From the NCBI RefSeq assembly GCF_017744255.1, contig NZ_JAGHQP010000008.1:1-64000 (forward strand): a stretch of DNA of 64,000 bases. Reading direction: 5' to 3'. Positions 49,632 through 55,237 of this stretch are shown piece after piece (position 1 is the stretch's first letter; each line of letters starts with the position of its first letter). The notes beneath the pieces are model-generated. The model did no database searches and was not told the origin of the DNA. It saw nothing but the letters and a program-made list of their open reading frames with translations. Origin of the DNA: Brevundimonas sp. A19_0 (GTDB lineage Bacteria > Pseudomonadota > Alphaproteobacteria > Caulobacterales > Caulobacteraceae). The position numbers and the translations under genes were made by a program.

Positions 49632-50510
49632 TCAGCGCGCCTCGCTGTCGGCCATCTGCTGCATGTCGGCGGCCACCGCCTCGGGGCGGGGGGCGGTCTC
49701 GGCATGGCGGGTGTCCTGACGGCGGGCCAGGGTCCAGACCTTGTCCTCGACGAAGGCCGTTCCGTCGAAGGCCAGCACGGTCACGGTGATGGAGCGGTCG
49801 TCCCACTCGATGCGGTTGATGCTGGGCGGCACGCCGCGCAGCCGTCGCGACAGGGTCCCGCAGCCGACCGCATAGGATTTGTGGTCTCCCAGCTGGATGG
49901 GCAGGGCAAAGGGGACATGGACATGGCCGCTGAGCACCAGATCGACGCCGGCGTCGGCGAACAGCTGGGCGGCGCGGCGGCCGCGCTTCACATCGCCGGT
50001 GACGGGCGCACCCTCCATTTCGATCAGGGGATGGTGGACGGCGACGATGCGGAGTGCCCCCACGGGTGCGCGCGACAGGGCCTCGGCGGCCCGCGACGTC
50101 TGGTCCAGATCGATCACGCCCTTTGACCAGTTGAGGCGGGCCTGCCAGCCACGGGCGGTGGTGATGCCGCGCACCATCAGGGCGGTGTCGGTGAAGCGGG
50201 CGCTGAACTGGTGGTCATGCGCCGGGTGGCCGACCGCGTCCTCGAACGCCCCCCAGGGATTGAAGACCCGCGCCATCACATCCCAGTAGGGGACGTCGTG
50301 GTTGCCTACCGTGACGAACACCGGCGTCGGCAGGCTGTCGATCCAGCGGGCGGCGTCAAGGAATTCGGAGCGCGCGCCGACCTGGGTGATGTCGCCGGTG
50401 ATCAGGGTCAGGTCCGGCCGGACGTCGTGCAGCAGGTCGTGAACGGCGGTCACCGCCTCGGGGATCTCGCAGCCGAAATGCACGTCCGAAACCTGGATGA
50501 TCCGCCCCAC
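49632..50510 (-). CDS. Calcineurin-like metallophosphoesterase
   Basis: 292 residues from the GTG at 50510. The dimetal motifs are complete: D9 and H11 in SDVHFG, GD in LITGDITQ, GNHD, a His in VHHPL, and GHVH. This matches cyclic-nucleotide/3',5'-cNMP-type (Icc/CpdA-like) phosphoesterases as well as other subfamilies, so the substrate stays open. Its start overlaps the stop of the upstream diacylglycerol kinase-like gene (TAGTG), so the two may act together on lipid or nucleotide phosphates. Confidence 0.85.
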   Translation of the reverse strand: MGRIIQVSDVHFGCEIPEAVTAVHDLLHDVRPDLTLITGDITQVGARSEFLDAARWIDSLPTPVFVTVGNHDVPYWDVMARVFNPWGAFEDAVGHPAHDHQFSARFTDTALMVRGITTARGWQARLNWSKGVIDLDQTSRAAEALSRAPVGALRIVAVHHPLIEMEGAPVTGDVKRGRRAAQLFADAGVDLVLSGHVHVPFALPIQLGDHKSYAVGCGTLSRRLRGVPPSINRIEWDDRSITVTVLAFDGTAFVEDKVWTLARRQDTRHAETAPRPEAVAADMQQMADSEAR

Positions 50511-51463
50511 TAGACCCCTTCCTCCCCCGACGGCTCCGCATCGGCGGCAGGGGCGAGAGCGCGGAAGGCCACGGCGTCGAAGACGACCTCGGCCTCGGCG
50601 TCGAGCAGGGTCGGTTCTCCATCGATCACCGCTGGAATGCGCGAGCGGGCCGACACGGTGACGTAGCGGGTCGGACGGGTCCGGACCGAGGAATCCCGGC
50701 GCCAGTCGTCAAACAGGGCATGCGCCGCCAGACGGAAGGCGTCGACCGCCCCGCGGGTGTTCATGGCGGCGGCCTCCAGCCCCGTCGGGGCCTCCATGGC
50801 GCGCGAAATGGTGGGGCTGATGAGCACCAGGGCCTCGGCGCGGCCGGGGCCTTCCCCGACCAGGGTGTAGCGCAGGCGCCCGGTGAAGGCGCGTTTCAGG
50901 GCGCGCTGGCCATGCAGCCAGGCGAGACGCAGGCGACCCACGCGGACCGCCTCTCGCGCCGGTGCCCACAGGGCGGGCGCCCCCAGAATGGCGGCGCAGT
51001 AGAAGGGCCGGGATTCGATGCGGTCGACGACGCGCCCTCCGGCAACCGGCACCTCGGTGCCGGACTCCAGCGCGCTCCGGAGCGCCTTCTTCCAGTCTGC
51101 AGTGCCGTAAAGCGCCTTGGGCAGCATGTTCATCGTGCCGCCGGGCAGGGGCGCGATGAGCGGGCCGTCCGGTCCCGCCCGGGCCGCGATGGTCCCGGCC
51201 GTGCCGTCACCCGCCAGCACGAACAGGGCATCGGCCTTTGCGTCGAAGGCTTCGTCGATCCGGGCGTCAAAATTATCGGCGTCCAGCGCGATCAGGGTGG
51301 CCTGGATGTCGTAGTCGGCGAGGATGGCCTCGACTGCCTCGAGCGCGCCGTCGCCCACGCCGCCGGACAGCGGATTGACCAGCACCACGATCGAGCGCAG
51401 GGGCACGGCAGACGTCAGCGGCCGCGCGGTCGACGTCTCTTCAATGGTCAAGGTTTCCGCCAT
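50510..51463 (-). CDS. Diacylglycerol kinase-like protein (DAGK catalytic domain)
   Basis: 317 residues from the ATG at 51463; open codons beyond it are antisense to a small membrane protein gene. The DAGK/sphingosine kinase-type nucleotide-binding motifs are seen in VVLVNPLSGG, LFVLAGDGTAGTIAA and APLPGGTMNMLPKAL. These soluble lipid kinases phosphorylate diacylglycerol or related lipids. Its stop is coupled to the phosphoesterase start. Confidence 0.85.
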   Translation of the reverse strand: MAETLTIEETSTARPLTSAVPLRSIVVLVNPLSGGVGDGALEAVEAILADYDIQATLIALDADNFDARIDEAFDAKADALFVLAGDGTAGTIAARAGPDGPLIAPLPGGTMNMLPKALYGTADWKKALRSALESGTEVPVAGGRVVDRIESRPFYCAAILGAPALWAPAREAVRVGRLRLAWLHGQRALKRAFTGRLRYTLVGEGPGRAEALVLISPTISRAMEAPTGLEAAAMNTRGAVDAFRLAAHALFDDWRRDSSVRTRPTRYVTVSARSRIPAVIDGEPTLLDAEAEVVFDAVAFRALAPAADAEPSGEEGV

Positions 51464-51519
51464 GGCGGCTGAACGTGCCGAAGGTCCGGGTGTTCCAGCC
51501 GCCAGGGACGAAGACCCGA

Positions 51520-51879
51520 TCAGGGGTTCTTGAGTTCCTCGGCCGTGCGCTCGGCACCGGCTTCGAGGGCGTCGCCGGTCTTTTCGGCCAGATCCCCGGC
51601 ATCGTCGGCCACGGCTTCGGCCGCTTCGGGCGCCTGACCAACCAGACCCCTGGCGCCGTTCACGCCGCTGGTGAGCCAGCGGTCGATCGTGGCACCGCCT
51701 TCGGCGACAGACCCTTCCTTGATGCCCAGCGCCACCGTCAGGGCCCCGAACACGGCCAAGAGGACGATGATGAGTCCGATGATGCCCGACAGGCCGGCGC
51801 CCGAGCGGCGCTTCTTGCGGGCCCACACGGGGCTGGCATGCCCGTCGTCGGCCATCCGAGTGATCTGGTTGAAACGCAT
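51520..51879 (-). CDS. Small single-pass membrane protein of unknown function
   Basis: 119 residues from the ATG at 51879; a TTG two codons earlier is open too. A basic cytoplasmic stretch (KKRRSG) precedes one membrane segment (about 31-52, LSGIIGLIIVLLAVFGALTV), followed by an acidic Ala/Glu-rich region likely to form a helix. No domain recognised. It is divergent from the glycine-zipper lipoprotein gene; the shared intergenic region contains a CtrA-type box. Confidence 0.7.
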   Translation of the reverse strand: MRFNQITRMADDGHASPVWARKKRRSGAGLSGIIGLIIVLLAVFGALTVALGIKEGSVAEGGATIDRWLTSGVNGARGLVGQAPEAAEAVADDAGDLAEKTGDALEAGAERTAEELKNP

Positions 51880-51946
51880 ACGCAAATACCCCCTGGTTCT
51901 TGAAGGGGCCCCGGCTGGTATGCCCCCCGGCCCCGTCTCCCGGACC

Positions 51947-51961
51947 TTAATACAGTCTTAA
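51947..51961. promoter_or_regulatory. CtrA-type box TTAA-N7-TTAA
   Basis: TTAA-TACAGTC-TTAA at 51947-51961 matches the Caulobacter CtrA consensus (TTAA-N7-TTAA) without mismatch in the two half-sites. It lies in the divergent region between the small membrane protein gene and the glycine-zipper lipoprotein gene, about 80 bases upstream of the latter. The same bases can be read as CTTAAT direct repeats 11 bp apart. Confidence 0.65.
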
Positions 51962-52041
51962 TGCGAGATATAGTCGAGGAACCGGGGCCATAATCCAGCG
52001 TTCTCACCCCGGGGGCGAACTGAAGGGAAAAGGGATTGACG

Positions 52042-52398
52042 ATGAAGAGAGCGATTTTCGCCATTGCGGCCGCCGGCCTGTTGACCACGGCCTGCGCCAG
52101 CGACCCGTACGGCTACGGCGGGACCAACGAGACCGTCCGTCAGGGCGCGGCCGGTGCGGCCATCGGCGCAGTCGCCGGTGCCATCATCGGGAACAATGTG
52201 GGTGACGGCAGTGCCGGCACCGGTGCGGCCATCGGTGCCGCCGTGGGCGGTGCCGCCGGCGCCATCCGCGGCTCGAACCAGGACCGCGCCAACCAGCGCC
52301 GCAACTACGACCAGCAGCGCGGCGCCTACTACTACTGCTACCCCGAAGGGGACTGCTATTGGGAAGACGGTACGCGTCGGAACCCGCCGCGGTACTGA
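52042..52398 (+). CDS. Glycine-zipper lipoprotein
   Basis: 118 residues from the ATG at 52042, with AAGGGAAAAGGGA upstream. A lipobox LTTAC near residue 18 marks it as a lipoprotein. Two Gly-zipper stretches (GAAGAAIGAVAGAIIG and GAAIGAAVGGAAGAI) resemble 17-kDa antigen-type outer-membrane proteins. The tail is Tyr/Arg/Gln-rich. Function unknown. Followed by a terminator. Confidence 0.82.
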   Translation: MKRAIFAIAAAGLLTTACASDPYGYGGTNETVRQGAAGAAIGAVAGAIIGNNVGDGSAGTGAAIGAAVGGAAGAIRGSNQDRANQRRNYDQQRGAYYYCYPEGDCYWEDGTRRNPPRY

Positions 52399-52420
52399 TC
52401 GGACCCGAATCTGAAGGAGA

Positions 52421-52455
52421 AGGCGGCCTTTCCGTGCGGAGGGGCCGCCTTTTTC
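52421..52455 (+). terminator. Intrinsic terminator after the glycine-zipper lipoprotein gene
   Basis: AGGCGGCC (52421-52428) pairs with GGCCGCCT (52443-52450), followed by TTTTT. It ends about 35 bases before the OmpA-like gene. Confidence 0.9.
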
Positions 52456-52489
52456 TGTTAGGGTGAGGGCCAGGTTGGGGAGATATGGC

Positions 52490-52957
52490 ATGGCATCGGT
52501 ATCGATTTCGCGTTTTGCGGCACTGGCGGCGGTCGCCGGTGTCGGGCTGGCGAGCTGTTCGGGATACGGGCCGTTCCGCGACCGGAGCGACCTGGTGGTC
52601 GAGCCCGCGACCTGCACCGCCAAGCGGTTCGACATCTATTTCGCCGAGGGTCAGGCGCGCCTGACGGACCCGGCGATGCAGGCCATCCGCATGACGGCCG
52701 ACCAGCTGCGCGGGTGTGACATCCGCAAGGTCGTGGTCATCGGTCTGGCCTCGTCGACCGGATCGTCGGCCGCCAACCAGACCCTGTCGGAGCGCCGGGC
52801 CATTGTGGTGACCGAGGCCCTGGAGGCCGAGGGCTGGCCCCTGCCGGTGTTCGAGATCGCTGTGGCGGGCGATACGGGCGCGACGTCGGGCGACGGGACG
52901 GCCGTACCGCTGCGCCGCCGGACCGAAGTGCTGATCGAGGCCGCGCCCCCGCGCTAG
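52490..52957 (+). CDS. OmpA-like periplasmic lipoprotein
   Basis: 155 residues from the ATG at 52490, with GGGGAG upstream; nine extra upstream codons are non-coding. A lipobox LASC near residue 23 indicates a lipoprotein. The C-terminal half resembles an OmpA/MotB peptidoglycan-binding domain (FDIYFAEGQARLTDPAMQAI, then LSERRAIVVTEAL), though the canonical NR/DRR-type residues are only partly matched. It may tether the outer membrane to peptidoglycan. Confidence 0.75.
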   Translation: MASVSISRFAALAAVAGVGLASCSGYGPFRDRSDLVVEPATCTAKRFDIYFAEGQARLTDPAMQAIRMTADQLRGCDIRKVVVIGLASSTGSSAANQTLSERRAIVVTEALEAEGWPLPVFEIAVAGDTGATSGDGTAVPLRRRTEVLIEAAPPR

Positions 52958-53071
52958 GCCGTGCGTCCCGCCGTCGCAGATCAGGCATGAGCGTCCCCGA
53001 GGGAGGTGACCCGGCGCGCGCGCGCGCCTAGGGTCGCGCCGTCCTCATTGCTTCGGGAGCCCAGAGCGCCG

Positions 53072-55237
53072 GTGCCGACCCTGTTCCTGTTCCTGCGACG
53101 GCTGCTGCCGGTGGCGCTGCTGGCGCTGTCGGCCGTCGCCCCGGCCCATGCGCAAAGCTCAATCGCGGCCAGGACCGGCCCGGCCTCGACCGAGCGGATC
53201 ACGGCGGAACTGGTGTCGATGACGGCCAGCGCCACGCCGGGATCGACCCTGATCCTGGCGGTCCGACAGGACATCCGGCCCGACTGGCACACCTATTGGC
53301 GCAATCCCGGGGATTCCGGCGGGGCCACCACCCTCAGCTGGCACCTTCCCGAGGGGCTGGAAGCCGGGGAGATCGTCTGGCCGACACCGGAGCGCCTGCC
53401 GCTCTCCGGGCTGATGAACTACGGCTATGAGGGCGTCGTCTATCTGCCGGTGCCGGTCGCCGTGCCCGCCGATGCGGTGCCGGGCGAGAGGCTGGATCTG
53501 TCGGTGACCGCCCTGTTTCTGGTATGCAGCGCCGAAATGTGCGTACCGGACCAGCTGGAGCTGGCCCTGAGGCTGCCAGTCGGGGCGGCCGACCAACGCG
53601 CGCTCGAGACCCCCCATGCCGACGCGATCCAGGCCGTGCTGGACAGCGCGCCCCGCCCCGCAGGTCTGGAGGCCCGCATCGAGCGAGACAATGACGGCAC
53701 CCTGACGCTGGCGGTGACCGGGGATGCGCTCAAGGGCGAGGGCGGTCCGGGGCCGGTCTATTTCTATCCGTTCGCGACGGATGTGATCGACCATGCCGCG
53801 CCCCAGACCGGGACCTGGGGGCCGGAGGGGCTGGCCCTGAAGCTCCGCCCGGGCAGCCGGCCTGCGGACGGGCCGCCAGAGCCGATCGCCGGGGTGCTGA
53901 CCACCGCGCGCGGGGCCTATGAGATCATTGCCCGACCCGGCCCCCTGCCGGAGGGCACGAGCGGCTCGGGGGCGCTCGACAGCGACGCACAGGCCCGGGG
54001 CGGGTTCGATTTGTCGGCCCTGCTGCAGGCGGCCCTGCTGGCGCTGGCGGGCGGGCTGATCCTCAATCTGATGCCTTGCGTCTTCCCCATTCTGGCGATG
54101 AAGGCGGCGGCGCTGGCCCGCGCGGCCCATGATCCGCGCGAGGCGCGACGCGACGGTCTGGCCTTTATGGCGGGTGTGCTGGTCACCTTCCTGTTGCTGG
54201 CCGGGCTGATGCTGGGCCTGAGGGCAACGGGAGAGGCGATCGGCTGGGGCTTTCAGCTGCAAAACCCGGTCGTGGTGCTGTCGCTGGCGCTGTTGACGCT
54301 GGCGGTGGGGCTGAACCTGTCGGGGGTCTATCATATCGGCCAGTCGCTTCAGGGGCTGGGCGAGGCCCGGCTGGCGCGCCTGCCGGGCGGCACCGGGGCC
54401 TTTTTCACGGGCGTGCTGGCGGTGGCGGTGGCGGCGCCCTGTACTGCCCCCTTCATGGCGGCGGCGCTGGGCGCGGCTCTGGTCATGCCCTGGGCGGCCG
54501 CGCTGATCGTGTTCCTGATGCTGGGGCTGGGTCTGGCCCTGCCGTTCGTGGCCATCAGCCTGAGCCCGCCGCTGCTGGCACGCCTGCCGCGGCCGGGACC
54601 GTGGATGGACCGGATGAAGGGCCTGCTGGCCTTTCCCATGTATGCGACGACGCTGTGGCTGATGTGGGTAGCGGCACGGCAAGCGGGCAGCGAGGTGCTG
54701 GCGCTGGGCCTGCTGGCGGGTCTGATGCTGGCCTTTGCCCTGTGGCTGTGGGGCACGCGACAGGCAGGCGCCGGGCGGTGGGCGGTGGTCCTTGGCCTGA
54801 TCTCGCTGCTGGCCGCAGGGGCCGCCCTGGCCGTGGCCGCCCGGATGGAGCCGGAGGTGTCGGCCGCGTCCGCAGACGGGGCCGAAGCGCTGGTCGCCGG
54901 GGTCTGGTCATCCGCAGCGGTCGAGGCCGCGCGGGCCGAGGGGCGCCCCGTGCTGGTCAATTTCACCGCCGACTGGTGCGTGACCTGCAAGATCAATGAG
55001 CGGGTGGCCCTGTCATCCGGCGAGGTGAGCGAGGCGCTGGCGGAGACCCGCGGCGTCTATCTGGTCGGCGACTGGACCGTGCGCGACCCGGCCATCACCC
55101 GCGAGCTGGAGCGTCACGGGCGCTCGGGCGTGCCGCTGTATCTGCTCTATGCGCCCGGACAGGCGGAGCCGCGCGTCCTGCCGCAACTGTTGACGCCGGG
55201 GCTGGTGGCCGAGGCTGTCCGCGACGCGGGCCGCTGA
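53072..55237 (+). CDS. DsbD/ScsB-like thiol:disulfide interchange transmembrane protein
   Basis: 721 residues from the GTG at 53072; a GTG at 53006 would add 22 residues before the signal peptide. The periplasmic N-terminal domain (about 30-300) has a CSAEMC pair, as in ScsB. The central part has about eight membrane segments with MPCVFPIL and APCTAPFM, the cysteine pair of the DsbD family. The C-terminal thioredoxin domain has ADWCVTC. It moves reducing power from the cytoplasm to periplasmic partners. Convergent with the next gene. Confidence 0.9.
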   Translation: MPTLFLFLRRLLPVALLALSAVAPAHAQSSIAARTGPASTERITAELVSMTASATPGSTLILAVRQDIRPDWHTYWRNPGDSGGATTLSWHLPEGLEAGEIVWPTPERLPLSGLMNYGYEGVVYLPVPVAVPADAVPGERLDLSVTALFLVCSAEMCVPDQLELALRLPVGAADQRALETPHADAIQAVLDSAPRPAGLEARIERDNDGTLTLAVTGDALKGEGGPGPVYFYPFATDVIDHAAPQTGTWGPEGLALKLRPGSRPADGPPEPIAGVLTTARGAYEIIARPGPLPEGTSGSGALDSDAQARGGFDLSALLQAALLALAGGLILNLMPCVFPILAMKAAALARAAHDPREARRDGLAFMAGVLVTFLLLAGLMLGLRATGEAIGWGFQLQNPVVVLSLALLTLAVGLNLSGVYHIGQSLQGLGEARLARLPGGTGAFFTGVLAVAVAAPCTAPFMAAALGAALVMPWAAALIVFLMLGLGLALPFVAISLSPPLLARLPRPGPWMDRMKGLLAFPMYATTLWLMWVAARQAGSEVLALGLLAGLMLAFALWLWGTRQAGAGRWAVVLGLISLLAAGAALAVAARMEPEVSAASADGAEALVAGVWSSAAVEAARAEGRPVLVNFTADWCVTCKINERVALSSGEVSEALAETRGVYLVGDWTVRDPAITRELERHGRSGVPLYLLYAPGQAEPRVLPQLLTPGLVAEAVRDAGR

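Follow-up and report, generated by a model that had tools for sequence, protein, structure and literature searches.

A CtrA-type box, TTAA-N7-TTAA, lies between two divergent genes for small envelope proteins in the 64 kb window (the whole stretch of Brevundimonas DNA analysed here). Its most likely target is the minus-strand gene for a small membrane protein, for which it would serve as operator. The best explanation of the locus, to which we give a probability of about 0.58, is that this gene is repressed by CtrA and is situated between two envelope genes driven by promoters of the SigT/EcfG general-stress type. The coordinates of the relevant features are given in Table 1.

Table 1. Features of the locus and related genomic sites. 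Positions are those of the window unless a contig is named.
Feature	Position	Strand	Basis or remark
Diacylglycerol-kinase-like (lipid-kinase) gene	50510..51463	minus	PF00781 DAGK_cat, 47.1 bits (cut-off 23.6)
Second predicted SigT/EcfG-type promoter, GGAAC-N16-CGTT	51472..51496	minus	8 bases before lipid-kinase ATG
Small membrane-protein gene, 119 aa	51520..51879	minus	One hydrophobic segment (by eye); box tracks this gene
CtrA-type box, TTAA-N7-TTAA, TTAATACAGTCTTAA	51947-51961	.	Exact match; half-site register conserved in relatives
Predicted -10 of membrane-protein gene, TATATC in window	51967..51972	minus	Conserved minus-strand TAnnnT in relatives
Predicted SigT/EcfG-type promoter of glycine-zipper gene, GGAAC-N16-CGTT	51978..52002	plus	Motif and conservation
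Predicted 5' end of glycine-zipper mRNA, GGGGGCGAAC	52011..52020	plus	GGGGCGAA in 78 of 86 sequences
Glycine-zipper protein gene, 118 aa, putative lipoprotein	52042..52398	plus	PF13441 YMGG-like Gly-zipper, 38.7 bits (cut-off 28.9)
Genomic TTAA-N7-TTAA boxes L005 and L006	G000:C42:69739-69753 and 69804-69818		65 bases apart
RF01529 (CC3552) sRNA	L219 8277-8381 (G000:C43)	minus	Rfam, 78.6 bits; beside NepR and sigma genes

An earlier note on this DNA had reported a single intergenic TTAA-N7-TTAA between two small envelope genes. This was confirmed: TTAATACAGTCTTAA is present exactly at the position given in Table 1, the window contains no second match, and 100 dinucleotide shuffles produced none. 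The minus-strand gene starts at 51879 and the plus-strand gene at 52042, with 67 bases between the box and the first ATG and 80 bases between the box and the second. Across the genome (2,922,979 bases or 2.92 Mb in 47 contigs) the pattern was found 8 times and its backward control 6 times. The pattern is thus rare but not clearly over-represented, and whole-genome over-representation was dropped as support for the box. Two of the other genomic boxes (L005 and L006) lie in tandem between hemE and a PpsR-type gene, an interval corresponding to that of the Caulobacter replication origin, and a further box (L003) precedes an SLT transglycosylase gene by 24 bases; all three are plausible, unproven CtrA sites. 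The remaining genomic boxes are L001, L002, L004 and L007; the L007 box falls inside a 2-hydroxyacid dehydrogenase frame when this frame is read at its full length.

The genome encodes CtrA, one gene scoring over the cut-off of NF045991 (415.4 versus 350 bits). In B. subvibrioides, sciP transcription was abolished when both halves of its CtrA site were mutated (PMC7987155). Purified Caulobacter CtrA bound a Brevundimonas phage region containing such boxes, with a competitor control, and mutating the boxes abolished binding to a probe from another phage; when CtrA function was reduced in Caulobacter, expression of the Brevundimonas phage gene rose (PMC9437464). The open-access literature searched, mostly without full texts, yielded no CtrA ChIP data for Brevundimonas and does not name the present locus.

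Conservation of the box was examined in 94 loci in which the membrane-protein gene is divergent. Their intergenic regions gave 86 distinct sequences, which were anchored on GGAAC; 84 of these are from Brevundimonas, that of the window included, and two are from another genus. When the 55 bases upstream of GGAAC were scanned, at least 7 of the 8 box letters were found in 24/86 sequences and all 8 in 7/86. In letter shuffles the means were 0.335 and 0.005, respectively, and the largest counts 4 and 1. Among the control motifs, TAAT-N7-TAAT also scored 24 at 7/8, since it overlaps the same letters with a shift of one base, and the other 40 scored between 0 and 10. TTAA occurs 65 times in the 7893 bases upstream of GGAAC in the 86 sequences and 52 of these occurrences are in half-site positions, 16 at -32/-31 and 36 at -21/-20 relative to GGAAC, an offset of 11 bases that corresponds to the N7 register. 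At least one perfect half-site is present in 45 sequences. The box spacer varies among groups of sequences (TACAGGC, CGCAACC, GTCATCG) with the halves unmoved. Where the in-register second half is intact (36 sequences), the next two bases are CC in 23, giving TTAACC, the ending of the classical CtrA site.

The above results indicate that the box is present beyond chance, as it is conserved among relatives, and together with the encoded CtrA they support the assignment in the earlier note of a CtrA-type box to this divergent region. The conservation check which that note proposed has a divided outcome: the half-site register is conserved in Brevundimonas relatives but the full box is kept in only some of them. 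Of the 84 Brevundimonas sequences in which the membrane-protein gene is present, 37 score 5/8 or less, and boxes of at least 7/8 occur in 9 of 37 sequence clusters, perfect ones in 4. In the window's own cluster, perfect boxes are found in three of five members, the window counted. Those 37 low-scoring sequences, and the near equality of the genome-wide count with its backward control, are what would be expected if the box had arisen by chance or were a decaying relic with no function in this species. We consider this very improbable, since 52 of 65 TTAA stand in register, the 24 boxes far exceed the shuffle mean and perfect boxes recur in the window's cluster.

An alternative is that the stretch serves as the operator of a regulator other than CtrA, or as a 5' stem-loop of the membrane-protein mRNA, with the TTAA being coincidental. 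One large group of sequences contains the dyad AGCCT-N5-AGGCT, centred at -27 where the box is centred at -24, and this is the sole centre with a paired fraction (0.48) above 0.36. The N7 spacer, which need not be conserved in a CtrA box, is conserved in this group. However, the dyad is lost in other groups, where the TTAA halves remain in register with different spacers: L160 has TTAACGCAACCTTAACC, L162 differs by one base and the group of L017 retains the second half only. In addition, no Rfam family reached its gathering score in 50500-53500. This alternative is unlikely in our view.

The distribution of the box was compared with that of the neighbouring genes. The membrane protein, for which no family scored over cut-off in Pfam or NCBIfam, has a match in 84 of 131 Brevundimonas genomes. 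Within Brevundimonas, a box of at least 7/8 is present in 24/84 sequences where the membrane-protein gene is found and in 0/42 where it is missing, and one of at least 6/8 in 47/84 and 3/42, respectively (Fisher p = 2e-5 and 3e-8, values which ignore relatedness, many of the 42 gene-less sequences being near-identical). This comparison supersedes a smaller one (24/84 versus 0/16). The 42 sequences come from the 47 Brevundimonas genomes without a membrane-protein match; in the five left out, either the glycine-zipper match was missing at E 1e-20 or the piece lay at a contig edge. Absence of the gene was judged by searching whole genomes with the window protein (E up to 0.001) and the fetched neighbourhoods with eight queries. 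Two loci, L229 and L238, have lost the gene, probably in one event, and have kept the stress promoter and the CCAG described below; their box and minus-strand -10 have decayed, leaving the relic TACAGGCTT. Given the 24/84 versus 0/42 distribution, the box is assigned to the membrane-protein gene and not to the glycine-zipper gene. Of the two genes which the earlier note suggested might be cell-cycle controlled, the membrane-protein gene is the likelier candidate; the glycine-zipper gene has its own predicted stress promoter whether the box is present or not.

A candidate transcription start for the membrane-protein gene lies within the box. CATAG is conserved just upstream of GGAAC and reads on the minus strand as TATGCT or TATGAT, the commonest forms in relatives. 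A minus-strand TAnnnT (T1, A2, T6) was found within one base of the expected offset in 57/86 sequences and at the exact offset in 50/86; on the plus strand, TAnnnT was found at the same place within one base in 5/86. The window's own hexamer, TATATC, ends in C, departs from TATNNT and is outside the 50 exact-offset sequences. The -35 appears weak by eye, and a scan of 51500-52500 for sigma-70-like promoters found no minus-strand site. Transcription from this -10 would begin about 7 bases further on, near 51960, and the box would cover approximately -2 to +13 of the predicted start. As the box overlies this start, repression is the likelier role for CtrA at the membrane-protein gene. Activation in Caulobacter is associated with full CtrA boxes near -35, and CtrA sites with their first base at -14, nearer the start, are read as repressing (PMC4287350). 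The predicted position of the present box is further downstream than the -14 repressor sites and this counts against the preferred reading.

The sole sigma-70-like site found by the scan in 51500-52500 is on the plus strand, TTAATA-16-TATAGT (9/12; shuffles mean 0.1). These hexamers, the former containing the first TTAA of the box, would be exactly the -35 and -10 of a second promoter for the glycine-zipper gene, starting near 51981 and activated by CtrA, and the lipoprotein would then be under both cell-cycle and stress control. The 5' base of the box would lie near -34, an activating position in Caulobacter (PMC4287350). Against this, the TAnnnT at this place is found on the plus strand in 5/86 sequences and on the minus strand in 57/86, and none of the 42 loci with the glycine-zipper gene but without the membrane-protein gene has a box of at least 7/8. 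Activation from this plus-strand promoter is, in our estimation, improbable. CtrA action on the glycine-zipper gene was rejected as the main reading on the same two grounds, the unconserved plus-strand -10 and the absence of such boxes where the neighbouring gene is missing.

The glycine-zipper gene, whose product has a signal peptide followed by LTTAC (read by eye), is predicted to have a general-stress promoter of its own. The earlier note missed a GGAAC-N16-CGTT between the box and this gene, suitably spaced from its start codon. The same motif is found at SigT-dependent promoters in Caulobacter (PMC4287350). The strict pattern GGAAC-N15-17-CGTT precedes the glycine-zipper gene in 42/42 Brevundimonas loci without the divergent gene and in 75/86 sequences with it, the 11 exceptions replacing CGTT, as judged by eye, with CATT (9) or TGTT (2). 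Outside the genus, a looser pattern was present within 350 bases upstream in 25/25 evaluable loci, two at odd distances (30 loci were fetched, hand-picked from the best matches). Five of 71 loci (L057, L061, L070, L074, L075) were dropped as tblastn did not recover the protein, and several others have extrapolated starts. The spaced pattern alone is not rare. It occurs 3 times in the window, where 0.93 are expected (N15-17), and 24 times forward and 13 times in reverse across the genome (N16-17), where its backward control occurs 18 and 11 times, so the promoter call is carried by conservation. GGGG is found at about the same leader position as the predicted mRNA 5' end in many loci without the divergent gene.

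Two further observations concern this region. A CCAG at 51995-51998, directly before the -10 CGTT, is present in 85/86 sequences with the divergent gene and, by eye, in 2/42 without it, although the choice of anchor prefers CCAG sites and so favours the former count; the minus-strand promoter may include it. A gene for an OmpA-domain protein (52490-52957) directly follows the glycine-zipper gene on the same strand, and none of the window's three stress-type motifs precedes it.

The components of a general-stress response were found in the genome. NepR is encoded (54.4 bits, cut-off 25.7; NF051865, 104.9, cut-off 100), a sigma-70/ECF gene overlaps the NepR gene (TIGR02937, 71.8, cut-off 42.9) and would be of the EcfG subtype judging from its neighbourhood, and PhyR was identified by eye. 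GGAAC-N16-CGTT precedes both the NepR gene and the opposed response-regulator gene and served as a positive control. The sRNA beside these genes (Table 1), which may be a GsrN relative, lies behind GGAAC-N16-CATT and has a run of seven C around its predicted loop. This run is complementary to GGGGGCG of the conserved glycine-zipper leader (GGGGCG). The leader was rejected as a target of a GsrN-like sRNA, since 563 of 1000 random window stretches gave a duplex energy as good as or better than its -42.8; as the energy is no better than random, the pairing is only a lead.

The lipid-kinase gene lies downstream of the membrane-protein gene on the same strand and is preceded by the second stress-type promoter, one of the three matches of the spaced pattern in the window; its mRNA is probably near-leaderless. 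Of 60 loci in the set, 59 have a kinase match (L034 has none), and in 57 of these a looser GGAA[CT]-N15-18-CGTT precedes the kinase gene, or in 50 of 52 genomes when repeats were removed by hand. In the two misses, L129 and L131, the start was probably set wrongly. Where the membrane-protein gene is absent, for example in L022, the two stress promoters are directly opposed to each other. The literature searched, mostly without full texts, does not name the glycine-zipper and lipid-kinase genes as SigT/EcfG targets.

In the preferred reading, phosphorylated CtrA would occupy the predicted start of the membrane-protein gene and block RNA polymerase, so that high CtrA would silence the gene and low CtrA would allow its expression. 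The glycine-zipper gene would be driven by its own SigT/EcfG promoter and the lipid kinase likewise; with both neighbours stress-driven, a cell-cycle-controlled gene would stand between two stress-controlled envelope genes. This suggests, without proving, that cell-cycle and stress control meet at the locus. Comparison of relatives shows the TTAA register, the minus-strand -10, the two stress-type promoters and the joint occurrence of box and membrane-protein gene, while CtrA binding, sigma dependence, the start sites and repression are inferred. More tentatively, and with less confidence than in the preferred reading, the locus could be viewed as a crossroads at which a CtrA-repressed membrane protein is kept between two opposed stress promoters. 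Within 0.5 kb, cells low in CtrA would make the membrane protein and stressed cells its envelope neighbours, CtrA bound at the box or transcription under stress might influence the other promoters, and the box would decay once the gene is lost.

Both CtrA and the EcfG stress response are well-studied programmes of global control in these bacteria, and in our judgement the DNA stretches which they share are of interest. The locus offers a compact test case in Brevundimonas, with relatives lacking both gene and box as a natural control, and the analysis adds a lipid kinase and a lipoprotein not yet characterised to the probable stress regulon. By itself the locus is a predicted regulatory site made of known kinds of element and presents no new mechanism.

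The stress-type promoters agree with known SigT/EcfG promoters in exact motif and spacing and are conserved in nearly all the orthologues examined. OsmB is controlled by the stress sigma factor RpoS. The enterobacterial glycine-zipper proteins OsmB and YmgG resemble the present case in that a small envelope protein is placed under a general-stress sigma factor, here a predicted one; the sigma factor differs and the likeness is by domain only (PF13441). At the P1 and P3 promoters of C. crescentus ctrA the repressor site is at -14, whereas the present box lies on or just after the predicted start. Relative to the CtrA promoters of C. crescentus in general, many relatives here have half-sites only and the target gene is unnamed, but the locus is like them in motif, in spacing, in the presence of an encoded CtrA and in the location of the site near a predicted start.
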